Positions 3,584 to 20,335 of a DNA stretch of 20,998 nt are shown in pieces (the first letter of the stretch is position 1; each line of letters opens with the position of its first letter). Source of the DNA: a virus; the IMG/VR virus record IMGVR_UViG_3300048837_001626, positions 1-20,998 of that record, one strand, 5' to 3'. Under the pieces are notes generated by a model, which had not been told where the DNA came from, searched no databases, and worked only from the letters and a program-made list of their open reading frames with translations. The position numbers were made by a program, and so were the translations under genes.

Positions 3584-3640
3584 GGCGGACAGGATCGCCC
3601 GGCCAGGAAACAAGATCGGCGCCCCGCGTGCGGGGCGCCG
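3584..3640 (-). promoter_or_regulatory. Candidate late promoter / leader element upstream of the tape measure gene
   Basis: A perfect 10-base-pair dyad (CGGCGCCCCG, 4-base centre, CGGGGCGCCG; 3617-3640) is followed on the minus strand by 17 bases, then GCGATCCT (3591-3598), then 7 bases and the ATG. The same parts at the same distances precede the protease (11263) and endolysin (20278) starts. The dyad could be an activator site and GATCCT a weak -10 hexamer, or the dyad could be an RNA hairpin. A direct repeat TCTGAAGGG with a 10-base period (plus strand, 3645-3663) lies just upstream. Promoter function is inferred. Confidence 0.5.
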
Positions 3641-3678
3641 CTACTCTGAAGGGGTCTGAAGGGCGGTTGAGAGTGTCC

Positions 3679-4097
3679 CTACTTGCCCGCCTGCCGCTTC
3701 ATCCAGCCGGCGGCGCGGGCGAACCAGAAGCGCAGCTCGGCCGGGCCCCAGCGGCGCCAGTCCGCCGGGATGCCGAAGCTGCCGGCGATCACGTCGAGCC
3801 GGCCGTCCCAGTCCGGAGGCCAGCGGGAATAAAACCCGCGACCGCGTCCATCACCTCCATGCCGTCCTCGATCCCGAGGTCGGCCATCTCGGCCGCGGTG
3901 ACCCCGCAGCAGCGCGCGGCCAGGTGCAGGGTCATCGTCCCCTTGCCGGCATCGGCCGCGGCGTCCATGGCGGCGACCAGGTCGCCGAGCTTCAGCGGGC
4001 GCAGCACCAGCTCCGCCACGCTGTCCACCACCTGGCCGGTGCTGGCGCTGCGCCGTTCGATCGGCTGGCGCAGCGTGATCGTGACGGGGGCGCTCAC
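3679..4097 (-). CDS. Tail assembly chaperone, long form made by -1 ribosomal frameshift (predicted)
   Basis: Reading starts at the GTG at 4097, follows the short-form frame for 89 codons, then slips back one base at the heptamer GGGTTTT (3831-3837). It continues for 50 more residues (YSRWPPDWDG ... FGIPADWRRWGPAELRFW ... MKRQAGK) to the TAG at 3679. The extension looks like a real tail protein: Trp-rich, lacking low complexity, and with no convincing start codon or Shine-Dalgarno sequence of its own. Conserved frameshifting between two overlapping genes before the tape measure is known for many long-tailed phages, where the G and GT-type proteins guide tube assembly around the tape measure. 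The predicted product is 139 residues. Slippage has not been shown here. Confidence 0.65.
3789..4097 (-). CDS. Tail assembly chaperone, short form (Mu gp41-like)
   Basis: The 102-residue protein contains the typical VLRPLKLGDLVAAMDAA segment (about residues 31-47) and a CCGVTAAEMADLGIEDGMEV region, as in the Mu gp41 / phage TAC family. It acts as a chaperone for the tape measure and tube during tail building and is normally absent from the virion. The GTG start at 4097 overlaps the stop of the tail tube gene (GTGA). A plus-strand-style upstream extension of this frame would overlap the tube gene and is not supported. The slippery site lies at codons 88-89, so a fraction of ribosomes should make the longer form. 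Confidence 0.8.
   Translation of the reverse strand: MSAPVTITLRQPIERRSASTGQVVDSVAELVLRPLKLGDLVAAMDAAADAGKGTMTLHLAARCCGVTAAEMADLGIEDGMEVMDAVAGFIPAGLRTGTAGST
3831..3837 (-). other. Slippery heptamer for -1 frameshift
   Basis: On the minus strand the bases are GGGTTTT, read in the zero frame as G GGT TTT. This fits the X XXY YYZ rule: both tRNAs can re-pair as GGG TTT after slipping one base. The last four T residues sit in the loop of a small stem, GCGGG with CCCGC. Ten codons after the site the short form ends at a TGA (3789-3791), while the -1 frame stays open to 3679. Confidence 0.65.
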
Positions 4098-4453
4098 AGG
4101 ATCTCCTCGGCGCCGGGCCCGGCCATCCGGATGCTGACCTGCCCGCCTTCGCCGTCGCGCAGCGTGGGCGGTTCCGAGGTGAAGGCGTCGCTGATCAGGT
4201 ATCGCTGGCCGGTGTCGCATTCGAAGACCACGGTCGCGCCGGTCAGGTTGCGGAAGAACTCCAGCGACATGCCGGGGCGCAGCGCCGTCTCGGCCTCCAG
4301 CATCGCGGGCACGGTTTCCTCGGCGTAGCCGACCAGGCGGCCGACGGTGACCGGGTTGCGGCGCACGCCGCCGAGGTCGAGGCTGGCGCCCCGCGCGGTT
4401 TCGATGACCTGGCCGTTCGCCCGGATGGTCGCGCGGCCCAAGAACTGCGGCAT
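4094..4453 (-). CDS. Tail tube protein (Mu gpM-like)
   Basis: The 119-residue protein starts MPQFLGRATIRANGQVIET and has a DLGGVRRNPVTVGRLVGYAEE segment followed by beta-rich sequence, matching the Mu gpM / phage tail tube family of similar length. It polymerises into the inner tube of the contractile tail through which DNA passes. A strong Shine-Dalgarno AAGGAG lies about 8 bases before the ATG at 4453. It follows the sheath gene after a 113-base gap with repeats and overlaps the chaperone start by four bases. Confidence 0.85.
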   Translation of the reverse strand: MPQFLGRATIRANGQVIETARGASLDLGGVRRNPVTVGRLVGYAEETVPAMLEAETALRPGMSLEFFRNLTGATVVFECDTGQRYLISDAFTSEPPTLRDGEGGQVSIRMAGPGAEEIL

Positions 4454-4476
4454 CTGTCTTCTCCTTCGCTCTCAGA

Positions 4477-4509
4477 CGTCGTGCGAACGGCACGCCTTCG
4501 GCATGACGG
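4477..4509. repeat. Palindromic repeat shared with the activator gene 5' end
   Basis: This stretch matches 20750-20782 at 30 of 34 aligned columns by manual alignment, including ACGCCTTCGGC and TGACGG. It contains the short palindromic core GCCTTCGGC. It lies in the 113-base gap between the sheath and tube genes, directly next to the second repeat (4507-4547). The dispersed copies suggest a REP-like or host-type intergenic repeat. Confidence 0.55.
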
Positions 4510-4547
4510 GCGCGCGCATCCGCGCGCTTGGCTTCGCCGCGCAGGCG
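4507..4547. repeat. GC-rich palindromic repeat, copy B
   Basis: This is the counterpart of copy A at 691-730 (36 of 41 columns). It folds as GCGCGC-ATCC-GCGCGC. It sits about 20 bases downstream of the sheath gene stop on the transcribed strand, where a hairpin could lower read-through or protect the sheath mRNA 3' end. No U-tract is present. Confidence 0.55.
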
Positions 4548-4566
4548 AGGGCCGCGTGCTGCCGCC

Positions 4567-6042
4567 TCACAGCAGGAACTGGATCTGCGCCGCCATGACG
4601 CGGAACTGGTTCACCAGGTCGGGCGGCAGCAGCGCGTCCACGCGGTTCGGGTCGTTCGGGTTCCGCATGACGATGAGGTCGCGCTTGAACTGCTCGACGC
4701 CTTCGACCAGCCCCGCTGCCTCCCACTGGACGAAGCGGGCGATGATCTCGGCGCGGATGGTGCCGGGCGTGACCACGTTCTGGCCGCGCGCGAAGCGCGT
4801 GCCGTCATCCGCAAGCTTGTGGCGCGGGAAGCGCGTGGCGATCAGCTGCCGCAGGTCCCAGCGCAGGAACGCGACCGTCTTCAGCGTCTCGACGTCCACG
4901 TAGCTCGGATCCTCGGCGCCCGAGGGCGCCAGGCGATAGGTCGTCACGGCGCGCTCGATCGTGACCTGGTCGGCGGCATTGGCGCGCCAGGTGGCAAGGC
5001 CGACGCGCAGCAGCTGGTCGCGCTCGACCCAGGTGAACCGGGACGACAGCGCCGGCGGGACCACGCCGGGCAGCGCCAGCGTCTGCACCGGCCGGGCCGG
5101 ATCGGTCGCCAGCGCCGGGATCGCCGCCCCCGCGAAGGTGGCGGCCAGCTGCCACGGGGGCGTCGGCATGGCGCGGCTGCCGACCACGGTCACATGCGGG
5201 CTGTTGCGGGCTGCGCCGAAGGTCGTCAGATCGCCGAAGCTCCCGGTGCGGCCCAGCCATGCGTGGGTGTCCCGCATGGCGAGCGGCCCGAAATTGGCTG
5301 CCAGCCTGGCCTCCAGCGCGCTGATGCTCAGGTCGTCGCTGTGCGATGTCACGATATCGGTGAACCAGGTCTCGCCGAGCGCATCCAGGGCGACGTTCAT
5401 GCCCGGATTGGTCGCGCCACTGACGGTCTGGGCGATGACCGCGGTGCTGCCGGCCGGCAGCGCCTCGCCAGCACGCATGTTCAGCCGGATATCAAGCGCG
5501 TTCATCGAGCTGCCGCCGTTGTTGGCCGTCAGTGTCAGCACCTGCGCGGCGGACGCGGCGCTTACCGGCAGGTCGGGATCGGCCAGGATGGCGTTGCGCA
5601 ACAGCGTCGCCTGGGCGTTCTGGGCCGTGTTGTTCGGGATCGGCGCCACGACACGCCGGCCGCCGATGTACAGCACGATCTCACCTGCCGCAGTCGTGGT
5701 GCCTGCGAAGGAGATCGTCCAGGTCGCAGCGGTTGATCCGGGATCGTCGGCGAGGGACAGGCCCCAGACCTCGGTGGGCGGGCCGGCGGCGAACCAGGCT
5801 TCGAACATCTGGGTAATCAGGCAGCCGCGGCCGAAGAAGTTCCGGGCCTCCTGCACGCTGGTCACGCGCACCGGAACGGCACCCGGCACGCTGCCCTGCC
5901 CCGGGCGCCGCTGGCCGATCAGGACCACGCGCGCCGGCCAGGTGCTGAGCCCCCGCACCGCGCGGCTGTTGTCGATCTCGATGTAGGTCCCCGGCACGCG
6001 GACGCTGCCGGGGATCCCGTTGAAGCTGATGCTGGCGGACAT
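4567..6042 (-). CDS. Contractile tail sheath protein (Mu gpL-like)
   Basis: The 491-residue protein begins MSASISFNGIPGSVRVPGTY and contains VVLIGQRRPGQGSVPGAVPVR and the family-typical C-terminal region. That region includes ATRFPRHKLADDGTRFARGQ, VVTPGTIRAEIIARF and NPNDPNRVDALLPPDLVNQF. This is the Mu gpL sheath family at normal length. It forms the outer contractile cylinder that drives DNA injection, and its presence marks the phage as myovirus-type. The ATG at 6042 follows a GGAG motif, with the DUF2635 gene ending six bases earlier. Confidence 0.93.
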   Translation of the reverse strand: MSASISFNGIPGSVRVPGTYIEIDNSRAVRGLSTWPARVVLIGQRRPGQGSVPGAVPVRVTSVQEARNFFGRGCLITQMFEAWFAAGPPTEVWGLSLADDPGSTAATWTISFAGTTTAAGEIVLYIGGRRVVAPIPNNTAQNAQATLLRNAILADPDLPVSAASAAQVLTLTANNGGSSMNALDIRLNMRAGEALPAGSTAVIAQTVSGATNPGMNVALDALGETWFTDIVTSHSDDLSISALEARLAANFGPLAMRDTHAWLGRTGSFGDLTTFGAARNSPHVTVVGSRAMPTPPWQLAATFAGAAIPALATDPARPVQTLALPGVVPPALSSRFTWVERDQLLRVGLATWRANAADQVTIERAVTTYRLAPSGAEDPSYVDVETLKTVAFLRWDLRQLIATRFPRHKLADDGTRFARGQNVVTPGTIRAEIIARFVQWEAAGLVEGVEQFKRDLIVMRNPNDPNRVDALLPPDLVNQFRVMAAQIQFLL

Positions 6043-6048
6043 CCGCGA

Positions 6049-6255
6049 CTACTCCTGCTGCGCCGGGTCGGCGGGGGGGGAAGCCGGCTCGGGCTCGGCG
6101 GGCGGGTCGGCCACCACGACGTCGCCCTGCGCCACGCGGCGGCGCCAGTAGTCGTCGTCCGGCACCTCCGCCCCGGCCGGCGGCAACCACATGGCCGCCG
6201 CCGGCGCATCCGGCATCGGGATCATCAGCCCATCCAGGGCGGGGCGGACGAACAT
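6049..6255 (-). CDS. DUF2635 small phage protein (Mu gp38-like)
   Basis: The 68-residue protein reads MFVRPALDGLMIPMP, then LPPAGAEVPDDDYWRRRVAQGDVVV, followed by an acidic Pro-rich tail. This matches the DUF2635 / Mu gp38 pattern, including the WRRR...GDV core. Its function is unknown; in Mu-like phages it lies immediately before the sheath, as here. The ATG at 6255 is chosen because AGGAG lies six bases upstream. An earlier ATG at 6273 overlaps the preceding stop (ATGA) but has no Shine-Dalgarno sequence and would add six residues not seen in the family. Confidence 0.78.
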   Translation of the reverse strand: MFVRPALDGLMIPMPDAPAAAMWLPPAGAEVPDDDYWRRRVAQGDVVVADPPAEPEPASPPADPAQQE

Positions 6256-6269
6256 GCGGCTCTCCTGGG

Positions 6270-8117
6270 TCATGGCACCGCGAAGGCGGTGCCGGCGGCG
6301 GCGATGCGCCGTGCTGTCGCGGTGAAGCGGGCATCCGCGCTGACGCCCTCGGGCGCGGTGCCGTCGCCCTGGAAGCCGAAATGCACTTCCAGATACGCAC
6401 CCGGGCCGAAGGGGCGCAGCTGCACCGGCGGCGTGCGGATCACGAAGCGCCAGGGCTGCGACCACACCGGCTGGAAGCCCGCATTCGCCGCCGCGCCGGA
6501 CTGCCATTCGAAGCGCAGAGGCCCGCCGCCGCCGTTGAACTCGACCAGGCCGGCATAGATGCCGCCCAGGTTGACGGCGCCCGCTTCCAGCTCCGCCTCG
6601 ATCACGGCTTCCACGATATCGCCGGCGGCCAGCCCCGCCTCGGCCGTTGCGAAGCGGTGGAACAGGCCGGCGCGGTAGATCTGCAGCCCGTCGCGCACGC
6701 CGACCAGCGTCAGCCGCTGCCATTCGCCGCCTGCCGGGCGCGGCGCCTTCGACGCCACCTTGGTGCCGGCCGTCTCCCCGAGCGTGTTGCGATAGGGCTG
6801 CAGGCCGCCGGCCGCGAAGCCCGTCCAGCCTTGCGTCGCCACCGCGCCGCTGCCGGCGTTCAGCGCGTTCGCGACCAGGCCCGTGTCGCCCGGGCGCGGG
6901 ATTTCCGCGCCGCCGCGAACCCGCGGCGCGAAATAGTCCCGGATCCCCTGCGCCATCAGGAACGCGCCGCGCGCGCCGGGGTGGGTCACGTCGAACACCA
7001 CGCCGGGCAGCGGCAGGCCGGTGACCGGATCGGTGGTCAGCGGCGACCAGTCGATCCAGTCCACCCGCCCCTCGGCCGCGAAGTCGCGCCACATCTGGTC
7101 CAGCGCATCGCGCGCCGCGAGCTGCGCCGCGCTGAAGCTGCTCTTCGCCAGGATGTGCCCGGCAAAGCAGCGCATGCCCAGCGCCGCGGCGGTGTCGAGG
7201 ATCTGCGATGCGGCGCTGCGGCTGGCGGCGATCGGCGTCTGGGCGGTGGCGTCGTTGTGCCCCAGGCTCAGCAGCCCCAGGTAGCGCGGCCGCGGCTGCA
7301 AAGCGCCCAGCGCGCCCAGGCGCAGCGCGACATCCGCCAGGCGCTCGCCGGATACGCCCAGCTGGTGGGTCCGCCGGATGCGCAGCGCCCCGTCCAGCAT
7401 CTGGCCCGCCCAGTGGACAGGCCCGCGATAATCGAAGCGCTGCAGCACCCCGCCGCCGCCGCCGGCGACGTAGCTGTCGCCCAGCAACGCGACGTCCACC
7501 GGCGCGACGGCGCGGCCATCGTCGGGCTCGGCCTGCGGCAGGACGACACGGTCGGACGCGTTGCGATAGACATGCGGCACCGGCGGCGGGGCGGGCACGT
7601 CGCCATGCGGCGGGATGTCCCAGGCCGCGTCGAAGGTGACGAAGGGCGCCAGCACATCGGGATCCACGCCCTGGGGGAATTCCAGCGGCACCTCGGCCAC
7701 CAGGGCGTAGACGATGCGGCCGAGCTTCTCGAACGCATCGGCCTGCAGCTGCTCGGCGCTGGTGATCTCGACCTGGCCGGCGGCCACCGCGGGCGACCAG
7801 CCGCCGAGCGCGGCGATCGCCACCTGCACCATCTCGTAGGCGCCGATGGTGGCGGCATCGCCGCGCCGGCGCGCGCGCTCCCCGGCGGCGTTGCCGGCCA
7901 GCAGGTAGATGCCGAACTGGGCGCGCCAGACACCTTCCGGCCGCTCCGCGCGGGACATGCCGAGGAACGCGACATAGGCGCCGGGCGCCATCGTCAGGAT
8001 GCGGGAGAGTTCCTCGGCCGTCAGGCGGTCGGGCTTGTGGTCCACCTCCTTCACGCGGCTGCCGAAGGCGTCGGCCAGCTGCGCGACGAGGGCGTCCTCC
8101 ATCTGCGAGATGATCAT
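6270..8117 (-). CDS. Mu gp37-like (DUF1834) domain fused to an SGNH/GDSL hydrolase and a C-terminal beta-rich region
   Basis: This is a 615-residue protein. Residues 1-195 match Mu gp37 (DUF1834): GAYVAFLGMSRAE, then VWRAQFGIYLLAGN, AYEMVQVAIAALGGW and a WDIPPHG end. In Mu this gene product is the proposed tail terminator. From about 206 a second domain begins with the hallmarks of SGNH hydrolases: LLGDSY (nucleophile Ser215), Gly at GVSGER (about 254), GHND (286-289), and DVTHP giving Asp376 and His379. The remaining residues (about 405-615) look beta-rich and may bind carbohydrate. The frame is continuous, with ATGA overlaps at both ends. Such hydrolases deacetylate or de-esterify cell-surface polysaccharides or peptidoglycan, but the substrate here is unknown. 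Fusion to a neck or terminator protein is unexpected, because such enzymes normally sit on tail fibres. A lost stop codon or domain capture could explain it. Confidence 0.8.
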   Translation of the reverse strand: MIISQMEDALVAQLADAFGSRVKEVDHKPDRLTAEELSRILTMAPGAYVAFLGMSRAERPEGVWRAQFGIYLLAGNAAGERARRRGDAATIGAYEMVQVAIAALGGWSPAVAAGQVEITSAEQLQADAFEKLGRIVYALVAEVPLEFPQGVDPDVLAPFVTFDAAWDIPPHGDVPAPPPVPHVYRNASDRVVLPQAEPDDGRAVAPVDVALLGDSYVAGGGGGVLQRFDYRGPVHWAGQMLDGALRIRRTHQLGVSGERLADVALRLGALGALQPRPRYLGLLSLGHNDATAQTPIAASRSAASQILDTAAALGMRCFAGHILAKSSFSAAQLAARDALDQMWRDFAAEGRVDWIDWSPLTTDPVTGLPLPGVVFDVTHPGARGAFLMAQGIRDYFAPRVRGGAEIPRPGDTGLVANALNAGSGAVATQGWTGFAAGGLQPYRNTLGETAGTKVASKAPRPAGGEWQRLTLVGVRDGLQIYRAGLFHRFATAEAGLAAGDIVEAVIEAELEAGAVNLGGIYAGLVEFNGGGGPLRFEWQSGAAANAGFQPVWSQPWRFVIRTPPVQLRPFGPGAYLEVHFGFQGDGTAPEGVSADARFTATARRIAAAGTAFAVP

Positions 8118-8566
8118 CCGCGCCAGCCGGATCGGTAATGGCCGAGGTCGCCGGCGGTGACGTTGCGGGGCTCCCCCTTCGCCACCACCACGCCACCGCC
8201 GTCCTCGGCAGGCTCGGCGCCAGCGGCGTCGAGGCCGAGATCCGCCTTGCCCATCGCCACGTCGCGCAGGAAGGCGATGGCGTGGTCGCGTTCCTTGGTG
8301 ACCTGCTCCGTGGGCTGGCGATCGCCGCCCAGATAGAGGTCGTAGCGGGCGATGGCGGCCGACAGCCGCACCAGCAGGCGCGGCGTGGCGGACAGCGGCA
8401 GGGTGTGCCGCTTGGCGATGTAGCCATCCGCCATGTCCCCGGCGTCGTCGCAGGCCCGCTGCACCTTCGCCTGGTCCGGCTGGCCGTGCGGGCCTGGCGC
8501 GAGCTGGAACAGCTCCTCCAGGCCGTAGCGGCTCAGCAGGTCTTCGGGGGTGCAGTAGGCCGGCAT
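8114..8566 (-). CDS. DUF1320 head-tail joining protein (Mu gp36-like)
   Basis: The 150-residue protein begins MPAYCTPEDLLSRYGLEELFQL and contains ACDDAGDMADGYIAKRHTLPL, then RLLVRLSAAIARYDLYL, ending with LGHYRSGWRG. This is the DUF1320 / Mu gp36 pattern at normal length. It is a head-tail connector component by position. The start is the ATG at 8566; the frame is open further upstream but that part overlaps the previous gene. Its stop overlaps the ATG of the gp37-hydrolase fusion (ATGA). Confidence 0.88.
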   Translation of the reverse strand: MPAYCTPEDLLSRYGLEELFQLAPGPHGQPDQAKVQRACDDAGDMADGYIAKRHTLPLSATPRLLVRLSAAIARYDLYLGGDRQPTEQVTKERDHAIAFLRDVAMGKADLGLDAAGAEPAEDGGGVVVAKGEPRNVTAGDLGHYRSGWRG

Positions 8567-8576
8567 GAGAGGGCTC

Positions 8577-8852
8577 TCAGCGCGCCCTGCGGCGTGGCTT
8601 GTCGCCCTCCACCGCGGCGGTGTCGGCGCCCTCGCCGTCGTCCCCAGCGGCACCGGCGGCGTCGGCGCCGGTGGCGCCCCCAACACCACCGGCGCCCTCC
8701 GCCGCAGCGGGCTCGGCCTCGCCGAGATCCTCGACCAGGCCACGCGCGCCGAGCAGCAGCTTCGCCTCGACGGCGTCCACCACCAGCTCCGTGCCGGAGG
8801 GCAGCGCGCCCTCCGGCATGGTGAGATCGGCCAGCAGCCGGACCTTGCGCAT
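8577..8852 (-). CDS. Small phage head protein, acidic C-terminus (unrecognised)
   Basis: The 91-residue protein starts MRKVRLLADLTMPEGALPSGT. It has a compact N-terminal part (residues 1-45) like many short head-module proteins that begin with a KVxLL motif and contain an 'EAKLLLGAR' helix. An Ala/Gly/Asp/Glu low-complexity stretch and a basic end follow. The start overlaps the capsid stop by one base (TGATG), indicating coupled translation. No function can be assigned; a connector or capsid accessory role is suggested only by position. Confidence 0.7.
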   Translation of the reverse strand: MRKVRLLADLTMPEGALPSGTELVVDAVEAKLLLGARGLVEDLGEAEPAAAEGAGGVGGATGADAAGAAGDDGEGADTAAVEGDKPRRRAR

Positions 8853-9787
8853 CAGGCCGCTGCCGTCTGGATCAGGTAGCCGGCGCCAGCGCCGGCCACG
8901 ACGGGGACGCGCTCGTAGCTGACCGGGTAGAACCAGGACTTGTGCACGTCGTCCCAGTAGGGCTGCTCGACGAGGGGATGCCCCTCCATCTCGTAGGTGT
9001 AGCCGTAGGTCGGCTGCGCGTTGTCGGCGGCGCCGGTCACCGTGTAGGCCAGGATCACGTCCGTGCCCCAGACATCCACCTGCGCGTCGGCGGCATCCAG
9101 CATCACGGCGGTGCCCACCACCACCCGCTCCAGCTCCCACAGGCTGGCCAGGATCTCGGTCGTGACGCTGTCGCGGCCGGTGTACTTGATGCGCTCGATG
9201 ATCGCGGGGTTGCGGCGCAGCGCGGTCATCACGCGCGGGCCGATGATCGCCGTGTTGGGATACAGGCCGACCTGCGCACGGACCGCTTCGCGGCCGTTGT
9301 CGATGGCGATCTGGGGATCCACGCTGGCGTCGCTGAAGCGCGCGCCGGCGCCCAGCGCGATGCGGTTGCTGGCGGCATAAGTGGCCGTGGCGCGGGCCAG
9401 CGCCGCCGCTTCCTGCTCCAGGCTGTTCAGCGCCGCGCCCATGCCCTTCTGGCTGGCGACCATGCCGAGGTTGATGCCCGGCACACGCTCCGCGTCGCGG
9501 GCGTATTCCCGCGGCACCGGCACGTCGATCGCATCCTGCACCAGCGCATAGGGGCGGTTGCCGTAGCCCATGGGCAGGCGCTTCGTGGCGCCGCCGGGCG
9601 TGCGGCGCATGTTCAGCTGGCGGAACTCCTCCCGCCCGAACTCGATGATGGTGCCGCCGGCCACCGGCACCGGCACGCGCGGGAACAGGAAGGGCGCGAC
9701 CAGGTTGTTGGGCCGGAAGCCGCGCGCGACGGTCGAGAGGACCGGATCGACGACCCGCGCCTGGCGCAGGCTGATGGACATGGACAT
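8852..9787 (-). CDS. Major capsid protein
   Basis: The 311-residue protein has the pattern of a widespread phage capsid family: VDPVLSTVARGFRPNN, PFLFPRVPV, GGTIIEFGREEF, PNTAIIGPRVMTALRRNP, VVVGTAVMLDAADAQVDVWG and a C-terminal SWFYPVSYERVPVV followed by GAGYLIQ. It forms the head shell, probably with an HK97-type fold. It does not resemble Mu gpT at the motif level, so the head shell gene seems to come from another phage lineage. GGAG lies about 11 bases before the first ATG, and a second ATG lies two codons on. It lies between a DUF2190 gene and a small head gene. Confidence 0.88.
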   Translation of the reverse strand: MSMSISLRQARVVDPVLSTVARGFRPNNLVAPFLFPRVPVPVAGGTIIEFGREEFRQLNMRRTPGGATKRLPMGYGNRPYALVQDAIDVPVPREYARDAERVPGINLGMVASQKGMGAALNSLEQEAAALARATATYAASNRIALGAGARFSDASVDPQIAIDNGREAVRAQVGLYPNTAIIGPRVMTALRRNPAIIERIKYTGRDSVTTEILASLWELERVVVGTAVMLDAADAQVDVWGTDVILAYTVTGAADNAQPTYGYTYEMEGHPLVEQPYWDDVHKSWFYPVSYERVPVVAGAGAGYLIQTAAA

Positions 9788-9804
9788 GGCTCAGGGTTCT
9801 CCGG

Positions 9805-10218: not shown

Positions 10219-10231
10219 TCGCGCCGCCTCC

Positions 10232-10744
10232 TCAGCCGGCCTTCTCGACCGCCAGCGCGGCGGTCACGTAGTCCACGGCCGGGTTGGCCTTCTGGTAGGC
10301 GAGCGCCTTGGCGTGCAGCGCCATGCGGTCCGGATCCACGGCGCGGCCCGCGAACTCCGCGGTCACCGGCGCGTCACCCGCGCCCGGCCCCTGGCCACCG
10401 GCCAGCTCGCGGAAGGCAACGGCGGCGGGCAGGCCCGACAGCATCTCGCGGAAGGCGACGACCTGCGGCTGCTTCACCGTCTTCGCGCCCGACCCGCTGC
10501 CGCGGCCATCCGGCTCGACGAAGGCGATCTCGACCTCGGCCGACAGCGTGCCCATGAAGGCGGCCACGCGCGGCGCCAGGCCCTGCGGCAGGCGGCCCTG
10601 CCGCACCAGGTCCTGCACGAAGGCGCGGTTGTCGGCATCGACCCGCTCCGCCTCGCGCTGGGCGAAGGCAGCCTCCCTCTCGGCGATCGCGCGCTCGCGC
10701 GACGCCAGCTCCTCGGCGCGTCGCGCCGCGTCCTCTTCGTTCAC
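10232..10744 (-). CDS. Nested scaffold protein (gpZ-like), internal in-frame start (predicted)
   Basis: Within the protease frame, a GTG at 10744 is preceded by AAGGA seven bases away, a far better ribosome-binding site than that of the full gene. It would make a 170-residue protein starting with a charged coiled coil (NEEDAARRAEELASRERAI then AEREAAFAQREAER), as expected for a scaffold. Mu makes scaffold gpZ from an internal start inside gene I in the same way. Independent expression is an inference from the site and the Mu precedent. Confidence 0.5.
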   Translation of the reverse strand: MNEEDAARRAEELASRERAIAEREAAFAQREAERVDADNRAFVQDLVRQGRLPQGLAPRVAAFMGTLSAEVEIAFVEPDGRGSGSGAKTVKQPQVVAFREMLSGLPAAVAFRELAGGQGPGAGDAPVTAEFAGRAVDPDRMALHAKALAYQKANPAVDYVTAALAVEKAG

Positions 10745-11263
10745 CGTGCGATCCTTGGCTTCGGGTGGGGTGGTGGCATTCGCGGCGACCGCGAACTCGA
10801 TACTGACGACGTGCGGCTCTTCGGCCACGCCGAACTCCAGCGTCACGACCTGGTCGTCGTCCGCCGCGAACTGGACGGGCTTCAAACCCTTCACCGCGGG
10901 CGCGGCCGCGCCGAGGAAGCCGACATGCTTCAGGTAGTAGGCGCCGGGCGAGGGGTTCTGCGGATGACGCGGCGTGTAGAGTGCGATGCTTACCTTCTTG
11001 AAGCGGCCGTCGCGAACCATGTCGGCGAATGCGGGCTCAACCTGGTGGGGCTCGGCGAACAGGCCATCCGGTTCGCTGGTGAGCGTCTTGACCCAGCCAT
11101 AGGCCGGCGCGTCTGTCGGCGGGTGACCCACCACGAGCGGCGCCTCCTCGCTTACCGTCGCGTAGGCGCGCGCCATCGCATCGAGGTCGGCCGCGCTGAA
11201 TTCCAGCGTGCCGCCGCGCATCGGGGTGTGCGCCCCCGCCCGGAACAGATGGATGCGTCGCAT
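10232..11263 (-). CDS. Phage prohead protease with C-terminal scaffold (Mu gpI-like)
   Basis: The 343-residue protein begins MRRIHLFRAGAHTPMRGGTLEF and contains APLVVGHPPTDAPAYGWVK, FKKVSIALYTP and a GAYYLKHVGFLGAAAPAVKGL segment. These are the signature regions of Mu-like gpI proteases (about residues 1-150). A linker and a coiled coil (about 174-210) lead to a scaffold-like C-terminus. It matures the head by cleaving scaffold and capsid proteins. I choose the ATG at 11263 because its N-terminus fits homologues and because the leader element has the same spacing to this ATG as at two other genes. A GTG at 11284 is the alternative. No Shine-Dalgarno sequence is visible for either start. Confidence 0.85.
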   Translation of the reverse strand: MRRIHLFRAGAHTPMRGGTLEFSAADLDAMARAYATVSEEAPLVVGHPPTDAPAYGWVKTLTSEPDGLFAEPHQVEPAFADMVRDGRFKKVSIALYTPRHPQNPSPGAYYLKHVGFLGAAAPAVKGLKPVQFAADDDQVVTLEFGVAEEPHVVSIEFAVAANATTPPEAKDRTVNEEDAARRAEELASRERAIAEREAAFAQREAERVDADNRAFVQDLVRQGRLPQGLAPRVAAFMGTLSAEVEIAFVEPDGRGSGSGAKTVKQPQVVAFREMLSGLPAAVAFRELAGGQGPGAGDAPVTAEFAGRAVDPDRMALHAKALAYQKANPAVDYVTAALAVEKAG

Positions 11264-11316
11264 GAGGCGCAGGATCGCGCGCACGCAGGGCCGGGTCGGT
11301 GCCCCACCAGAAGGGG
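11264..11316 (-). promoter_or_regulatory. Candidate late promoter / leader element upstream of the protease gene
   Basis: On the minus strand, CCCC-N7-GGGG (a degenerate dyad) leads into GGGGCACCGA, 17 bases, GCGATCCT (11271-11278), 7 bases and the ATG. Over the first 35 bases from GGGGC it matches the endolysin leader at 30 positions. Mu has its late promoter PI at the equivalent place. The rest of the 169-base gap (11317-11432) holds no gene I can support, only an AT-richer patch near the XRE gene end. Confidence 0.5.
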
Positions 11317-11432: not shown

Positions 11433-11693
11433 TTATTCGGCATACCGCCGGCCGGCGCCGACAACTGGCGCGCTGACCTCGCCTGTACGCAGCCAGTGCT
11501 CCTGGACATCCAGGGTGCGCGCGCAGGCCGCGAGCCTTTCGCGCCAGGGCGTGGCGCGCCCGTTCTCCCAGCGGGAAACCGCCTCCGGCAACACGCCGAC
11601 GCAGCCGGCCAGATCGGCCTGCGACAACTTGGCCTGCATCCTGGCTGCGGCGATGCGGCGGCCTATGGCTGGGTCTGGGCGGGGCTTGCTCAT
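11433..11693 (-). CDS. XRE/Cro-type helix-turn-helix regulator
   Basis: The 86-residue protein has a clear XRE domain: IGRRIAAARMQAKLSQADLAG (helices 1-2), CVGVLPEAVSRWENGRATPW (recognition helix with the classic SRWENGR), and LAACARTLDVQEHWLRTGE. It should bind DNA as a dimer and regulate a nearby promoter. Its ATG overlaps the stop of the gpG-like gene (ATGA), so it is produced with the late head genes. It is followed by the 169-base gap holding the protease leader. A Cro-like regulator is not part of the Mu late module. It may be a moron, or a late-phase repressor acting on the adjacent gap. Confidence 0.85.
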   Translation of the reverse strand: MSKPRPDPAIGRRIAAARMQAKLSQADLAGCVGVLPEAVSRWENGRATPWRERLAACARTLDVQEHWLRTGEVSAPVVGAGRRYAE

Positions 11694-14607: not shown

Positions 14608-14620
14608 GCGTCGTCGCCCT

Positions 14621-14953: not shown

Positions 14954-15245
14954 CCGCGCCGTCCTTCGTCGCACGCCAGATCCGCACGACGCGCGCGCTT
15001 TCGGTGCGCGTGACCGCTCCGCCCTTGCCCCACAGCCGCCGCGCGGAGGTCGAGATCGTCGCCTGCCATGCCGCCGCGGTCAGGCCGTCCGGCACGCGCA
15101 GCGCCATGGACTGGCCGGGCAGCAGCGGCCGCAGCAGCCCGGCCAGGTCCCAGCGCATCTTCGGGTTGCGCTTCGGCGGCGGGCTGAGGTCGTCGCGCGG
15201 CGCCTCGAACTCCACGCCACGCGCGCTGCGGCGGAACTCGGCCAT
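14946..15245 (-). CDS. Small accessory protein, unknown (99 residues)
   Basis: The protein begins MAEFRRSARGVEFEAPRDD and has a central LRPLLPGQSMALRVPDGLT region. It ends with a helix and strand pair (ISTSARRLWGKGGAVTRTE, then VVRIWRA). Short phage proteins of the layout 'helix, then TR...VRIWR' are common and might bind nucleic acid, but this is an impression only. The start at 15245 lies two bases after the methyltransferase stop, with GAGG upstream. An upstream extension to 15275 lacks such a site. Confidence 0.6.
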   Translation of the reverse strand: MAEFRRSARGVEFEAPRDDLSPPPKRNPKMRWDLAGLLRPLLPGQSMALRVPDGLTAAAWQATISTSARRLWGKGGAVTRTESARVVRIWRATKDGADG

Positions 15246-15247
15246 CG

Positions 15248-15991
15248 TCAGTCCTCGCCATGCGGGCCGCCCCACGGACCGGGCGCGGCCTGGGCCTGCA
15301 GGCGCGCCAGGCGCTCGCAGGCGACATCGAAGTAGCGTCGCTCCGCCTCGATCCCGATGCAGTCATGGCCAAGCTGCTGCGCCGCCACCAGCGTGCTGCC
15401 GCTGCCCATCCAGGGGTCGAGTATCAGCCCGGCCTGCGGGACGCGCGCTTCGCGGATGCACCAGCGCATGATCGCCACCGGCTTCTGGGTCGGGTGCACG
15501 CGCGGGCGGCCCGGGCCGATATCCTCGCGGCCTTCCTTGCCCACGCGGTAGCCATCCCACAGCAGCCGGTAGATCCGCATGGGGCGCTGCACCGGCCGCC
15601 TCGCGCGGCCACGGACCCGCCGCGGGAAGGGCCGATCGAGCACCAGCGCTGCCTCCCCGTCGCCCTGGCAGCGCCGGCTGCCATCCGGCCGCTTGTCCCA
15701 GACCAGCCAGGATCCGGGCGGAAGACGATCCGCGAAGCGGTGCGCACCCCACAGCAGGATGATGTCCGCCACCTGCAGCCAGGGCGCCGGATCGAAGGGA
15801 TGGTCGTCGCCCAGGATCGGCGGATACTCCTTCGAAGGCTGCCCCTTCACGCGCACGTTGGTCTTGAGCTTCTGGCCGTAGGGCGGATCGGCGATCACCG
15901 CGGCGGGGCGCGGCAGCGTGGGCGCGATCTCGCGGCAGTCGCCGAACCAGAGCGTGGCCCCGCCGATCTGCACGCATTCAGGCGCCGGCAT
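15248..15991 (-). CDS. DNA adenine/cytosine-N methyltransferase, beta-class (phage modification gene)
   Basis: The 247-residue protein has catalytic motif IV VIADPPYG near residues 32-39, an internal variable region with HPTQKPVAIMRW (about 166-177), and SAM-binding motif I LDPWMGSGST near 191-200. That order (IV before I) defines beta-class N6/N4 methyltransferases (N6_N4_Mtase family). The DPPY form favours N6-adenine. It probably protects phage DNA from host restriction or alters regulation. No partner endonuclease is present. The ATG at 15991 is chosen for the purine-rich site GGAAGGGGG before it; an ATG at 16039 is possible but would overlap the previous gene by 62 bases. Located between terL and portal, it is an added gene compared with Mu. 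Confidence 0.88.
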   Translation of the reverse strand: MPAPECVQIGGATLWFGDCREIAPTLPRPAAVIADPPYGQKLKTNVRVKGQPSKEYPPILGDDHPFDPAPWLQVADIILLWGAHRFADRLPPGSWLVWDKRPDGSRRCQGDGEAALVLDRPFPRRVRGRARRPVQRPMRIYRLLWDGYRVGKEGREDIGPGRPRVHPTQKPVAIMRWCIREARVPQAGLILDPWMGSGSTLVAAQQLGHDCIGIEAERRYFDVACERLARLQAQAAPGPWGGPHGED

Positions 15992-16235
15992 CTTCGCCCC
16001 CTTCCACCAGGTCCGCTTCGTAAGGCGCCGGCGAAACATGCCACCAGTGGTCCGCCGCCACGATCGCGGCGCAGCCGCGCGCCGCGTCGAGCAGGATCAA
16101 CTCGCCCTGGCTGCCGACCTCCAGCTCCGCCACGTCGGTCACGACCAGGTCGCCGGACGGGCCGAACACCACGTAGTCGCGCACCACGGTGTCGGTCTGG
16201 TTATGCTGCCCGATGTCCATCGTCGCCTCCGTCAT
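15978..16235 (-). CDS. Small accessory protein, unknown (85 residues)
   Basis: The protein begins MTEATMDIGQHNQTDT and contains a beta-rich centre (DLVVTDVAELEVGSQGELILLD) and a WWHVSPAPYEAD end. It is acidic with no cysteines or membrane segment. The ATG overlaps the terL stop (ATGA), and the 3' end overlaps the methyltransferase start by 14 bases, so it is co-translated with both. It could be a small virion or regulatory protein, but no family is recognised. Confidence 0.65.
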   Translation of the reverse strand: MTEATMDIGQHNQTDTVVRDYVVFGPSGDLVVTDVAELEVGSQGELILLDAARGCAAIVAADHWWHVSPAPYEADLVEGGEDAGA

Positions 16236-17863
16236 CCCAGGTAGTCCGCCACGCCCAAGCCCGCGCCAGAGCCGACGCCCACGAAGCCCGCGTACGGCGG
16301 TTCCGCCGGCCGAGACACCGGCGCGAAGCGCCCATCGCCCACGTCGCGGCCGGCGGCATAGATCGCCAGCGCGGCGGCGATCGCCGCGTCGCCATGGCGC
16401 TGCCCGCCCGCCTTGTCCTTCTCCTCGCCCTTCTCGACCTGGCGCTTGTCCGGCACGCGGGCCACGCCGCGCACCAGCTCGAGCTGGCGGAAGTCGTCCA
16501 CCACGCCGGCGTCAGCCGGGATGGTCAGGCCGCCATCTTCGAAGGCGGCCTTCAGCTTCGGCATGTGCGCGCGATACCAGGCCTCGGTCAGGTGGATGCC
16601 CTCGGCGCGGTGCGCGCCGTAGCGCTGCACGGTGACCTCGGCCAGGTAGGCGCCGTTGCCGGTGGCATCCAGCGCCACGCCCGACAGCCGCGGCAGACGG
16701 TCCAGCACGTAGTGCAGGATCTGCTTCTGCTGCTCGAAGGGCACGTTCCGCAGCTCGATCACGAAGGGCGCCCGCCGCACTAGGTCTTCCGACACCTGCA
16801 CCGGCCAGAAGACCGAGAGGTCGCCCACGCGGGCGAAGTCGCCGCCCAGCGCGTGGCGGAACAGGGGCGCCAGTGCGCGCAGCCGGGCGCCGACCTGGTC
16901 CTCGCACCAGGCCAGCACGTGCCGCTCCCGCGCGTGGTCGGGCAGGTGGACGAAGGCATCGTCGCAGCGCAGCCGCAGCACCGGCACGGTCCGGTCGGCG
17001 CGGGCCTCGATCAGGTGCAGCGGCAGGAACTTCCCCGATCCCGCGCGGGGGATCACGTCCAGCTCCTCGCCGGCGCCGTCGCCATAGAAGCCGCGGATCT
17101 CGTCGCGCCAGGCGGCCTCTGCCTCCGGCGTCCATTCGCGGCCGCGCACCAGGCAGATGCGCTGATACAGGCCGTCGCGCAGGGCGTCGTCGAACGTGGT
17201 GCGCAGCACGGCGCCGCGCTTGCGGCCCGCGCGGATGTCCTGGATCAGCTCGTTGAACGGGTTCTCCACGCCGTCATGGGTGGAGATCACCAGCACGCGC
17301 CCACCCCAGATCAGCAGCGCCAGCGCGGCCTTCAGCAGCTCCGCCAGCTGGTCGTGGAAGGCGGCCTCGTCGATCACCACGAAGCCCTGCCGGCCGCGCA
17401 GGCTTCGCGGGCGGGACGCCAGGGCGACGATCTCGAAGCCGGAGGCGAAGGCGATGCGGAAGGCGGCGATGTGCCGGTCCCCGCCATCCTTGTCCTGGTC
17501 GGCGAACAGGAACTCCGCCATCTCGCCGGCGGCCAGGCCAAGGGCCCGCGCCCACATGCCGCAGACGCCGATGAACTCCCGCGCCATGTCCAGGTTGTAG
17601 CCGATGTAGAGGCTGTCCATGCCGCCGGCGCTGCGCTGCGCGCCGCTGGTCAGCACGGCCTGCGCGCCCACGCCCCACGTCGCGCCGATGCGGCGGGACT
17701 TCTCGATGACCGTCAGCGCGTGCGCGCTGACCGTGGCCAGCAGCGCGCGCTGGTAGGGCAGCAGCACGCCGTCGGCCCCATTGGGCAGCGTGGGCATGGT
17801 CGCCACGGCGTCCTGCCGGTGGCGCGCCCAGTCCTCCGCGGTGATCGGGCCGGGATCGGTCAC
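16232..17863 (-). CDS. terL: Terminase large subunit (Mu gp28-like)
   Basis: The 543-residue packaging motor has an N-terminal ATPase with a Walker-A-like EKSRRIGATWG (54-64), Walker B FVVIDEAAF (161-169; Asp165, Glu166) and a coupling motif ISTHDG (193-198). The nuclease part has acidic residues in an RNase-H-like arrangement: GGDFARVGD (Asp342), VALDATGNG (Asp399) and HGDAAIAAALA (Asp492). It cuts and pumps phage DNA into the head; Mu-type terminases package from a pac-like site and accept flanking host DNA. The GTG start at 17863 overlaps the small-subunit stop (GTGA). All motifs are intact. Confidence 0.94.
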   Translation of the reverse strand: MTDPGPITAEDWARHRQDAVATMPTLPNGADGVLLPYQRALLATVSAHALTVIEKSRRIGATWGVGAQAVLTSGAQRSAGGMDSLYIGYNLDMAREFIGVCGMWARALGLAAGEMAEFLFADQDKDGGDRHIAAFRIAFASGFEIVALASRPRSLRGRQGFVVIDEAAFHDQLAELLKAALALLIWGGRVLVISTHDGVENPFNELIQDIRAGRKRGAVLRTTFDDALRDGLYQRICLVRGREWTPEAEAAWRDEIRGFYGDGAGEELDVIPRAGSGKFLPLHLIEARADRTVPVLRLRCDDAFVHLPDHARERHVLAWCEDQVGARLRALAPLFRHALGGDFARVGDLSVFWPVQVSEDLVRRAPFVIELRNVPFEQQKQILHYVLDRLPRLSGVALDATGNGAYLAEVTVQRYGAHRAEGIHLTEAWYRAHMPKLKAAFEDGGLTIPADAGVVDDFRQLELVRGVARVPDKRQVEKGEEKDKAGGQRHGDAAIAAALAIYAAGRDVGDGRFAPVSRPAEPPYAGFVGVGSGAGLGVADYLG

Positions 17864-18456
17864 GTGGCGGCTTTCGCGCCCCGTGCCGGCGCAGCCGGCT
17901 GGACACCGAGAATGCTCGCCTTGATGGCGTCGATCGTGGCGGCGGACAGCCCCTTCTCCCGCGCCATGCTCTCGGCGGCGGTGGCGGCGGCCCTCGTCGC
18001 GCGCGCGGCCGCGCGCTTCTCCGCGCGCTCGATGAATTCCACGTCGTGGCGGCTGGCCTTGGTCAGGTGTTCCAAGGCCTTCGCCAGCAGCATCGCGCCC
18101 TGCGGATCCCCGGCCAGCGCGGCACGGCCGCTTTCTGCCGCCTCATCGCCCTCGGCCATGAACAGATCCAGGATCGCCCCGTGCAGCAGTTCGATGTTCA
18201 GCCGCGCGGTCTTGCTTTCGGGCTGGTCGCCGAACTTGCGCACCAGCGCTTCGGCCACGGCGCGGCTGCGGCGCAGCTTTTCGCCCGCGGCGGCAAGCTT
18301 CTGGGTATAGCGACCCAACGCGCTGCGGCTGACCTCGACCGACATGCCCTCCAGGTGGGCCAGGATCTCATCCAGCGTGCGCCCCTGGTCGAGCAGCCGG
18401 CCGATGGCGTCGCGCACCTCGGGCCCCAGGCGATCCACGGTGGATTTGCGCGCCAT
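17860..18456 (-). CDS. Terminase small subunit (DUF3486, Mu gp27-like)
   Basis: The 198-residue protein starts MARKSTVDRLGPEVRDAIGRLL, with a helix-turn-helix-like region (RTLDEILAHL, then VSRSALGRYTQKLA). A DLFMAEGDEA helix, a long charged helix (FIERAEKRAAARATRAA) and REKGLSAATIDAIKASILG follow. This matches the DUF3486 / Mu gp27 family, thought to be the DNA-recognition subunit of the terminase. It lies directly upstream of terL and overlaps it, and starts six bases after the gp26-like gene. Confidence 0.88.
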   Translation of the reverse strand: MARKSTVDRLGPEVRDAIGRLLDQGRTLDEILAHLEGMSVEVSRSALGRYTQKLAAAGEKLRRSRAVAEALVRKFGDQPESKTARLNIELLHGAILDLFMAEGDEAAESGRAALAGDPQGAMLLAKALEHLTKASRHDVEFIERAEKRAAARATRAAATAAESMAREKGLSAATIDAIKASILGVQPAAPARGAKAAT

Positions 18457-18462
18457 GCCGGC

Positions 18463-18768
18463 TCAACCCGGCGCGGGCCGCGCGACGCCGGGCCAGGGGC
18501 GGCCCTGCGCCACCTCCAGCCCCGTGCGCGTCAGCTTGCCGATCCACAGCATCTCGCCGCCGGCGTCGAGCTTCTCGACCGTGACCAGGCCATGCGTCTC
18601 CAGCCAGGCCAGGTGGGCGCGCAGCACGTCGCGGCCGACCACGCCCAGCCGCAGGCGCGCCAGCATCCTTTCCACCAGGGTCTCGTTGAGGCTGTAGTCA
18701 TGGGCCTCCGAGAGGCATCTCAGGATCACCAGGCGGCGATCCTCATCCAGCAGGGCCTGCAGGCTCAT
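18463..18768 (-). CDS. Mu gp26-like small winged-helix phage protein
   Basis: The 101-residue protein reads LLDEDRRLVILRCLSEAHDYSLNET, then VGRDVLRAHLAWLETHGLVTVE and a strand pair ending TRTGLEVAQGR. This is the Mu gp26 / VpaChn25_0724-type family, an ArsR-like winged helix by pattern. Its role is not known; its fixed position between gp25 and gp27 suggests a packaging or late regulatory role. The start overlaps the DUF2730 stop (ATGA). Confidence 0.82.
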   Translation of the reverse strand: MSLQALLDEDRRLVILRCLSEAHDYSLNETLVERMLARLRLGVVGRDVLRAHLAWLETHGLVTVEKLDAGGEMLWIGKLTRTGLEVAQGRPWPGVARPAPG

Positions 18769-19112
18769 GGCTTCGGCTTTCCCTTGCCCAGCTCGTGCTG
18801 GATGAGCAGGCCCAGGTCGCGCTCCACGCGCGCGACCCCTTCGCGCACGCCGTCCACCCGCGCGCCGATCGCCGCGAAGCCGCTTTCCACCGCGCTCAGC
18901 CGCGCGTGGATCTGCTGCACGTCGTTATGGGTGGGCATCCGCGACAGCCGCGCGTCGATCTCGTCCATCCGCTCGCCGAGCTTGGCCACGTCGGCGCGGG
19001 ATGCGAAGTCGCCCGCGAAGCGCGCGCGCAGCAGCCACACCACCAGTCCGGAGGCGAAGGTGGCGACGGTGACGACGGCCGCGATGGCGGACCAGTTGAT
19101 GCCCAGGATCAT
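18765..19112 (-). CDS. DUF2730 membrane-anchored coiled-coil protein (Mu gp25-like)
   Basis: The 115-residue protein has one N-terminal membrane helix (about 8-27, AIAAVVTVATFASGLVVWLL), then a long charged coiled coil (FASRADVAKLGERMDEIDARL and VESGFAAIGARVDGVREGVARVERD). This matches DUF2730 / Mu gp25. Position next to the holin and the spanin-like topology suggest a lysis accessory or inner-membrane role; Mu encodes its spanins in this area. Function is inferred. ATGA overlap at both ends. Confidence 0.82.
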   Translation of the reverse strand: MILGINWSAIAAVVTVATFASGLVVWLLRARFAGDFASRADVAKLGERMDEIDARLSRMPTHNDVQQIHARLSAVESGFAAIGARVDGVREGVARVERDLGLLIQHELGKGKPKP

Positions 19113-19294
19113 GGCCGGGTCGCGCGAACAGCGCGCCCCTGCGGCAACGCCTCCGCCGGGTCGTCCATCACGCGGTCCAGCGATGCCGGCCGGCGATCCT
19201 CCGGCCGAGGCGGGGCCTGGCGCAGGCGGTGGCGGCGCAGCAGCTCCTGCCGCTCGCGTTCGGCCATATCGGCCGCCCAGTCCGCGTCATCCAT
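19109..19294 (-). CDS. Small charged protein, possibly a zinc-finger-less TraR/DksA-like remnant
   Basis: The 61-residue protein starts MDDADWAADMAERERQEL, very like the N-terminal helix of small phage TraR/DksA proteins, which many Mu-like phages encode in this region. The part that should hold the four cysteines (DDPAEALPQGRAVRATRP) contains none, so a zinc finger cannot form. It overlaps the holin by eight bases and the DUF2730 gene by four. Real coding is supported by the tight overlaps; the DksA relation is a weak guess. Confidence 0.6.
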   Translation of the reverse strand: MDDADWAADMAERERQELLRRHRLRQAPPRPEDRRPASLDRVMDDPAEALPQGRAVRATRP

Positions 19295-19646
19295 GGAAGG
19301 CCGTGCTCCCCGCCGGCTTGGGCATCCGGGCGCGGATCATCTGGTCGAGATCCGTCGTCTCGATGCCGAAGTGCGCCAGCGCGTCGGGCACGCGGCGCTG
19401 CACGTAGTCCCGCGCGACCTCGGCCGCGACCACGGCGCGGACGGGCAGATCGGGGCCGGTGACGCGGCGCCGCGCCTCGGCCAGGCCGAATTCCACGGCG
19501 CGGTCCAGCGCGGCCGTCAGGTAGCCGCGCACCTCGGCATCGGCCCTCAGGCGCAGGAACTGTCGCAGGCGAAGCAGCACGAAGCTGCCCAGCATCAGCA
19601 CGGCGGCGCCGGCGATCTGGAGCAGCGCCTCGGTCAGCGCGGTCAT
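19287..19646 (-). CDS. Holin, LL-H-like family
   Basis: The 119-residue protein has a hydrophobic segment at about 8-27 (LLQIAGAAVLMLGSFVLL), a basic turn, an amphipathic helical region and the C-terminal pattern ARDYVQRRVPDALAHFGIETTDLDQMI. The YV...P..L...GI....L..MI layout is that of the LL-H phage holin family. It would open the inner membrane to let the endolysin, which has no signal peptide, reach the wall. It overlaps the endolysin by four bases (ATGA) and follows it in the same operon. Confidence 0.75.
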   Translation of the reverse strand: MTALTEALLQIAGAAVLMLGSFVLLRLRQFLRLRADAEVRGYLTAALDRAVEFGLAEARRRVTGPDLPVRAVVAAEVARDYVQRRVPDALAHFGIETTDLDQMIRARMPKPAGSTAFHG

Positions 19647-20278
19647 CGTGACAGGAACTCCTGGCCAATGGCCGCCAGCGCGGCCCTGTAGCGGCGGCGC
19701 ACGTCGGCCATGCCGACCAGCCCGCCATTGATCATGCGGCGCACCTGTTCGATGTCGCCGGCGTCCGCGGGCGCATTGCAGCCGCGCCAGGACCAGAAGC
19801 GCGTGGCGCTTTCGGCGGCGCCCGGTTTCGTTTCCAGCCAGGCCGGCAGGCTTTCGATCGGGCGGCCTGTGGCGATCGCCAGGCGGGCATAGTTGTCGCG
19901 CCCGGTGGTCTGCAGCAGGCCGCGCCCACGGAAGCGCCAGCCGTCGCCCGGGCCGATGTTGCCCATGCGACCGCCATACACGCGCTCCGCCAGGGCTTCC
20001 GGGTTGCGGGCGAAGGGGCTGGCGGCAAGGGCATCGGGGAAGCGGGACGGCCAGACCCGCACCAGGCGCTCGGCCGAATAGCTCATGTTCTCCACCAGCC
20101 GCGCGAAGCCGCCGGTCTCATGCAGCGCATTCGCCAGGAAGGCTGCCAGGCGCTGCGGCGTGGTGATCTCAGCGGCGGCGCAGGCGGGCGGCAGCACGGC
20201 CGCCCACCCGAGTGGATCTGCCGCACCCAGCCGGCGCAGCAGCCCAGCGGTCGGGGAGATGGTGGCGGCGGCTGGCAT
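19643..20278 (-). CDS. Endolysin, glycoside hydrolase family 19 (chitinase-like lysozyme)
   Basis: The 211-residue protein has the GH19 layout: ALHETGGFARLVEN with catalytic Glu54 and probable second acid Glu63, then NMSYSAERL. It continues with the FARNPEALAERVYGGRMGN region, GDGWRFRGRGLLQTTGRDNY and a W-rich end (ATRFWSWRGCNA). It cleaves the peptidoglycan sugar backbone during lysis. There is no signal peptide or membrane anchor, so it depends on the holin. The start at 20278 has no Shine-Dalgarno sequence but has the shared leader element; upstream in-frame codons lie within the activator gene. Confidence 0.9.
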   Translation of the reverse strand: MPAAATISPTAGLLRRLGAADPLGWAAVLPPACAAAEITTPQRLAAFLANALHETGGFARLVENMSYSAERLVRVWPSRFPDALAASPFARNPEALAERVYGGRMGNIGPGDGWRFRGRGLLQTTGRDNYARLAIATGRPIESLPAWLETKPGAAESATRFWSWRGCNAPADAGDIEQVRRMINGGLVGMADVRRRYRAALAAIGQEFLSR

Positions 20279-20335
20279 GGCCGCGAGGATCGCGTGCGCG
20301 CGGGGGCGGGTCGGCGCCCCGTGTGCGGGGTGCCT
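20279..20335 (-). promoter_or_regulatory. Candidate late promoter / leader element upstream of the endolysin gene
   Basis: A dyad (9 pairs including one G-T; plus-strand CGGCGCCCCG, TGTG, CGGGGTGCC; 20312-20334) is followed on the minus strand by 17 bases and GCGATCCT (20286-20293), 7 bases before the ATG. It matches the 24-base dyad at 3617-3640 at 21 positions. The dyad overlaps the stop codon of the Mor/C-like activator gene. Mu has its late promoter Plys at this place. Confidence 0.52.

Follow-up and report, generated by a model that had tools for sequence, protein, structure and literature searches.

In phage Mu, the activator Mor binds a 16-bp site in which a 6-bp spacer separates two 5-bp arms; the site is centered at −43.5 and replaces the −35 element (PMC4390567; PMC4287176). 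The activator C recognizes a dyad of a related kind in Plys, PI, PP, and Pmom (PMC4287176; PMC4461284). In the open-access literature, we found no description of Mor/C-type sites outside Mu, including the sites in Rhizobium phage RR1-B that are reported below. Here we analyze IMG/VR virus record IMGVR_UViG_3300048837_001626 over its positions 1 to 20,998 (this whole stretch of 20,998 bases is referred to as the window), which has a late gene order like that of Mu by PHROG and Pfam matches. A spaced leader element occurs three times on its minus strand, before the endolysin, protease, and tape-measure genes. The original prediction took these copies for candidate late promoters, with a C4-G4 dyad as the site of a Mor/C-like activator and GATCCT as a weak −10. 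From the sequence comparisons that follow, we conclude that the three elements are very probably late promoters of a Mu-like phage that are activated via the dyad by the adjacent Mor/C-type protein and are predicted to give rise to leaderless mRNAs.

The element reads GGGGC(G/A)CCGA-N17-GCGATCCT-N7-ATG, with C4-N6/7 preceding the G4, and all three copies lie where they had been reported, on the minus strand at 20320-20276, 11305-11261, and 3625-3581. No further copy of GGGGC(G/A)CCGA-N17-GCGATCCT was found on either strand of the window. When up to 3 mismatches were allowed, the same three matches were the only ones, compared with 0.27 expected from shuffles, and none of 100 shuffles reached three. 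Composition predicts about 1.4e-5 exact matches per window for this pattern, which was defined post hoc. The ATGs at 20278, 11263, and 3583 open the endolysin, protease, and tape-measure genes, respectively (Table 1). In each copy, the C4-G4 dyad is directly upstream of a −35-like hexamer and its center is 45 bp before the A of the ATG. The arms GCCCC-N6-GGGGC are complete in copy 3, four of five arm pairs are kept in copy 1, and copy 2 is degenerate; the dyad that had been described for all three is perfect with N6 in copies 1 and 3 but imperfect in copy 2, where it has either N7 or one mismatch in N6. The interval from CCGAYC to GATCCT in the window copies is 17 bp, the ordinary sigma-70 spacing, and both hexamers are poor, with two to three of six matches to TTGACA for the −35-like CCGAYC and three of six to TATAAT for GATCCT. 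Many −10 elements of alphaproteobacteria deviate from the Escherichia coli consensus (PMC8407463). No Shine-Dalgarno motif was found before the three window ATGs; a fair share of the other window genes have at least a minimal one, which is a weak comparison because the start codons are our own calls.

The possibility that the element is equally common in host DNA, raised along with the original prediction, found no backing. The literal motif gave 7 matches in 257 Gb of genomes, near background. None has the C4 arm 5′, none seems to lie at a phage gene, and with so few chance-like matches a host-genome repeat was rejected. In viral contigs, the literal motif occurs twice besides the window, both times at homologous endolysins. 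The search of related phages that had been proposed thus found its mark in these two contigs, but the literal motif is too specific to serve as a general search tool. Contig L093 (L085 is the same contig) keeps the element and its position at the endolysin. At the protease gene of L004, whose product is 82% identical, a perfect CCCC-N6-GGGG and GCGATCCT are kept with an interval of 18 bp instead of 17, so the spacing that was called identical holds for the three window copies but is not invariant. The arms GCCCC-N6-GGGGC are complete in both L093 and L004.

The more distant comparison was begun from relatives of the activator, and each phage's own palindrome was then sought across its contig. 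Many activator genes have a palindrome of differing sequence directly 3′ of the gene. In 12 contigs (the window and its relatives), a palindrome particular to each phage starts immediately 3′ of the Mor/C-type activator gene, ahead of the endolysin. It is found again ahead of the head protease and, in the relatives, ahead of the gp46 baseplate gene or, in the window, ahead of the tape-measure gene. Five of the contigs (G002, G003, G004, G006, and G007) have three sites of their own dyad each. In G007, GCTGTTGCGCAACAGC is present exactly three times in ~30 kb, each time 42 to 46 bp before the ATG of the endolysin, protease, or gp46 gene. PHROG matches assign the genes behind the relatives' sites to families 181, 465, 315, and 7 (endolysins), 328 (proteases), and 180 (gp46-type baseplate wedge subunits); overall, the downstream genes belong to four endolysin and two protease families. 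Because the endolysins and proteases differ in family between phages, the element is not a by-product of coding homology. A scan of 2.9 million viral contigs with a GCCCG/CGGGC-class pattern gave six matches; two were due to chance, and four lay at genes predicted in two Mu-like phages that the set already included.

Among named phages, Rhizobium phage RR1-B (NC_021557) has a dyad of the form CCGGAAC-N3-GTTCCGG 3′ of its late-activator gene. The dyad is found at 11533, 18997, 26074, and 31111, before the lysin, protease, tape-measure, and gp46 genes; three of these are CCGGAACCGAGTTCCGG and one is CCGGAACCGGGTTCCGG, and tolerating up to two mismatches adds no further site. With both a tape-measure and a gp46 site, RR1-B links the window, which has the former, to the other phages, which have the latter. 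The RR1-B lysin, protease, and tape-measure starts are ~63 to 79 bp from the dyad center, and gp46 alone (ATG at 31163) has an annotated start at the 43.5-bp geometry. Three of the RR1-B dyads are followed by a T-rich run before the −10 (L186 11550-11565 and 19014-19029; L201 5129-5144), which may be a terminator or a bend. The Mu lys and mom promoters have a stretch of six Ts in the spacer (PMC4461284).

We determined the position of the dyad relative to its flanking genes at 27 sites in the 12 contigs. The distance from the dyad center to the ATG was 45.1 ± 1.2 bp (range, 42 to 47), a spread that was partly imposed because the scan accepted only ATGs 41 to 49 bp away, and the distance to the nearest upstream stop was −64 ± 53 (range, −164 to +12). 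When the ATG condition was dropped, nearly every cognate dyad was still at a late gene start, with one loosened-pattern exception in L191. These distances bear on the alternative that the dyads are intrinsic terminators of the preceding operons and are placed before late genes only incidentally. Copy 1 begins 3 bp after the activator stop codon, stable RNA hairpins are possible for copies 1 and 3 (−14.9 and −20.3 kcal/mol), and T-runs are present 3′ of the RR1-B dyads. However, the dyad keeps its distance to the downstream ATG and not to the upstream stop. Copies 1 and 2 have no T-run, copy 3 has only four Ts in 12, and the copy 2 hairpin reaches merely −6.5 kcal/mol. Moreover, the dyad sequence is common to unlinked sites within a phage and changes between phages, and a terminator needs neither. 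We rejected the terminator reading for the window on the T-run and hairpin evidence and consider it very improbable overall; a double role is possible in RR1-B-type phages.

Next to the ATG, a −10-like hexamer is present 5 to 9 nucleotides (nt) upstream across the 27 sites, and the hexamer scores there are higher than at 1,990 control ATGs (Mann-Whitney p 1e-13). The 27 sites have no Shine-Dalgarno words other than two inside the −10 hexamer GAAGGT. Because GATCCT is so near the ATG and there is no ribosome-binding site, the late mRNAs are predicted to be leaderless. Leaderless mRNAs occur in alphaproteobacteria, where they make up 7% in Methylorubrum (PMC9320726). Alternatively, these could be Mor/C-activated promoters with a start further upstream and mRNAs that are not leaderless, in which case the ATG spacing would reflect another constraint or a miscalled start codon. 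Consistent with that, the −10 match is weak, and the start codons of the G008 to G010 lysins and of the L037, L011, L013, and L033 proteases are 61 to 67 bp from the dyad center; the lysin start in G008 to G010, at 61 bp, implies a longer leader. The protease and gp46 genes of G008 and G009 have the leaderless geometry. The 27 sites, with an ATG 42 to 47 bp from the center, a −10-like hexamer just before it, and no Shine-Dalgarno motif, argue against the upstream start, as does the Mu dyad center at −43.5 from the mapped start (PMC4287176; PMC4390567), which would put +1 here at or within ~2 nt of the ATGs. We regard an upstream start as unlikely, if less so than the terminator. A CG-rich tract of alternating bases (GCGCGCGC-like) abuts the −10 on its 5′ side at most sites of the leaderless type (window 20292-20302 and 11277-11286; contigs L096, L182, L190, L183, L032, and L193) in a background that is itself high in GC. 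In L098, L100, and L102, the leader contains a second palindrome, TCGCCTCGACAACACGAGGCGA, whose center is 13 bp upstream of the lysin ATG; it hints that the lysis operon has a control of its own at the level of the leader.

The candidate activator is the product of the gene at 20334-20798, and the claim that a Mor/C-like protein is encoded immediately upstream of the first copy was borne out by its match to phrog_836. Its match to Pfam Mor scored 21.6 to 22.8 bits, below the 24.9 cutoff; of the aligned activator members, 20 of 23 match Pfam Mor (E up to 0.01) and all 23 match phrog_836. Mu C itself matches phrog_836 at 2.1e-11 and belongs mainly to phrog_532. The gene adjoins the endolysin on its upstream side, the same place as C in Mu, and an activator gene precedes the first dyad in every contig that covers that region. 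Across 19 activator/dyad pairs, activators with higher identity to one another tend to have half-sites with higher identity (Mantel r 0.51, p 2e-4); this test is confounded by relatedness, with shared ancestry contributing to the correlation. Thiobacimonas phage vB_ThpS-P1 has been described as having no Mor activator (PMC5488378); the protein directly upstream of its amidase (L187 12949-13335) matches the phrog_836 late transcriptional activator at 1.4e-19.

The dyads might instead be repressor operators and not Mor/C-type sites, for example, for an 86-amino-acid helix-turn-helix (HTH) protein of the CI/Cro type. Its gene (11433-11693, minus strand; phrog_4) is repressor-like; it separates the neck gene from the protease promoter and lies close to copy 2 on the upstream side. 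However, no homologue of it was found in L004 or the other element-bearing contigs compared, and the gene looks like a recent single-gene insertion for that reason. The activator gene, on the other hand, precedes the first dyad wherever that region is covered, the dyad covaries with the activator, and a position immediately 5′ of a poor −35 suits activation better than repression. An operator for the 11433-11693 protein was rejected because relatives have no homologue, and we find a repressor operator of any kind the least credible of the alternatives.

Given the relatives' own dyads, the fixed ATG distance, the tracking of dyad and activator, and the Mu Mor geometry, the operator model with the dyad as activator site and GATCCT as weak −10 gained support. 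It is amended in three respects that these comparisons support: leaderless transcripts are predicted, the gene behind the third site differs between phages (tape measure or gp46, with both in RR1-B), and the 17-bp interval is not invariant.

Several observations weigh against this reading, in addition to the partly imposed spread, the shared ancestry, and the longer lysin leaders given above. An AlphaFold2 model of the activator (mean predicted local distance difference test score, 84.9) has a C-terminal HTH, and Foldseek placed Mu Mor (1RR7) at rank 11 with E 0.7, a weak match. VIA-align of the model gave mainly HTH matches with Z below 5, and 1RR7 was not among the matches listed. We dropped the attempt to join the activator to Mu Mor by fold on these two results, and the structure comparison neither supports nor excludes a Mor fold beyond the HTH. 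Furthermore, the Rhodobacterales-like Mu-like contigs L022, L039, L054, L015, L048, and L052 have an activator of this class and no shared dyad. L218 likewise has no shared dyad, and no dyad was found in L095 (1-6671), which is rearranged. The L095 activator is 62 to 64% identical to that of the window and lies ~3.5 kb from the tape-measure gene, in a late region that may be rearranged or decayed.

How far the rule extends was examined in a blind sample of 385 evenly drawn alphaproteobacterial genomes. Fourteen had an activator match, and three fetched prophages also had a homologous protease. Because random prophage segments, when searched for palindromes with 5-bp arms, yielded many weak recurrences (controls up to 11 of 60 segments), the count was restricted to shared palindromes that were long or exact. 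In two of the three prophages (L225 and L230), the activator site and the protease site have a palindrome in common, with scores of 28 and 20 against control maxima of 9 and 8, and the third has none. By this sequence survey, the dyad rule is not universal among Mor-bearing prophages. In the G409 prophage, a GGGCGCA..TGCGCCC palindrome is common to activator and protease. In G412, a prophage from the same bacterial order, no shared site was seen, and the activator was not found in the stretch examined.

We infer binding, activation, the exact transcription start, and leaderless translation from sequence, in the following form. The activator would be made before late time and bind the dyad (consensus, GCCCC-N6-GGGGC; center, ~45.5 bp before the start codon) as a dimer. 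By making the contact for which the −35 is too poor, the bound activator would recruit the sigma-70 RNA polymerase of the host to GATCCT, the weak −10. Transcription would start at or within ~2 nt of the ATG, so that the endolysin, protease, and tape-measure genes would head leaderless mRNAs with no Shine-Dalgarno motif. A single activator could in this way turn on three late operons together, for lysis and packaging, head, and tail.

The late order in the window is activator, endolysin, terminase, portal, neck, protease, scaffold, capsid, sheath, tape measure, DNA-circularization-type protein, and gpP-like hub. The window ends inside the hub gene, and a gp46 site would therefore fall outside it. 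The nearest named phages matching the window are mostly from alphaproteobacteria, and the host of this Mu-like phage is probably an alphaproteobacterium.

Table 1. Genes and predicted promoter features at the three element copies in the window
Feature	Position	Strand	Remarks
Mor/C-type late activator gene, 154 amino acids	20334..20798	−	Stop 3 bp upstream of the C4 arm of the first dyad; phrog_836 "late transcriptional activator," E 1.1e-23
Copy 1 dyad CCCC-GCACAC-GGGG	20317..20330	−	Center 45 bp before ATG
Copy 1 weak −35-like CCGACC	20309..20314	−	17 bp before −10; putative, read from sequence
Copy 1 −10-like GATCCT	20286..20291	−	7 nt before endolysin ATG (20278)
Endolysin gene, first gene of lys late operon	19643..20278	−	phrog_181, E 5.7e-70
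Copy 2 dyad CCCTTCTGGTGGGG	11302..11315	−	One mismatch in N6 register; CCCC-N7-GGGG if read from 11316
Copy 2 weak −35-like CCGACC	11294..11299	−	Putative
Copy 2 −10-like GATCCT	11271..11276	−	7 nt before protease ATG (11263)
Head maturation protease gene (Mu I homologue)	10232..11263	−	phrog_976, E 3.9e-86
Copy 3 dyad CCCC-GCACGC-GGGG	3622..3635	−	GCCCC-N6-GGGGC arms complete
Copy 3 weak −35-like CCGATC	3614..3619	−	Putative
Copy 3 −10-like GATCCT	3591..3596	−	7 nt before tape-measure ATG (3583)
Tape-measure gene, first gene of third late operon	2054..3583	−	phrog_973, E 6.3e-42; Pfam TMP_3, 49.6 bits, above cutoff

Beyond this phage, we lean toward the view that a widespread Mu-like group shares a rigid ~55-bp module of dyad, −10, and start codon in which the dyad is re-coded together with the activator in each phage, giving orthogonal late switches. 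In the literature examined, Mor/C sites are defined only in Mu; the roughly dozen activator/operator pairs with repeated sites would make the rules of Mor/C DNA recognition directly testable. The module also predicts the late-regulon operons of many uncharacterized prophages and predicts that the lysis, head, and tail operons of some prophages are translated with no ribosome-binding site. In addition, it suggests a set of orthogonal activator-promoter pairs that may be usable in high-GC bacteria.

Compared with known systems, the elements probably work like the Mor/C system and belong to it. With Mu Pm and Mor they have in common the 5-bp arms and 6-bp spacer, a center near −43.5 (here, 45 bp before the ATG), a recognizable −10, a poor −35, and a related activator family (PMC4287176; PMC4390567). 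Unlike Mu, which has one Mor site and one middle operon, these phages have the same dyad at three or four late operons; the dyad sequence also differs from that of Mu, and the starts are predicted to be leaderless. The likeness to Mu Plys, PI, PP, and Pmom with C is in the activator gene just upstream of lys, a dyad that is upstream of the −35 region and overlaps it, the presence of several late operons that include lys and I, and the nonconsensus −10 and −35 (PMC4461284). In contrast to the Mu late promoters, the third and fourth sites here are before the tape-measure and/or gp46 genes, and the dyads are near perfect and nearly identical within each phage. With Mu as a positive control, the test used recovered only a 10-bp word, TCCCGCACCT, common to lys and I, and no clean repeated palindrome. 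RR1-B resembles the window in the dyad that comes after its late-activator gene and is repeated ahead of the lysin, protease, tape-measure, and gp46 genes, and it differs in its own dyad sequence, the T-runs 3′ of the dyad, and a longer center-to-start distance except at gp46. Relative to Mor/C, the predicted novelties are the re-coded dyads, a regulon that includes tape measure and gp46, and the leaderless start geometry.

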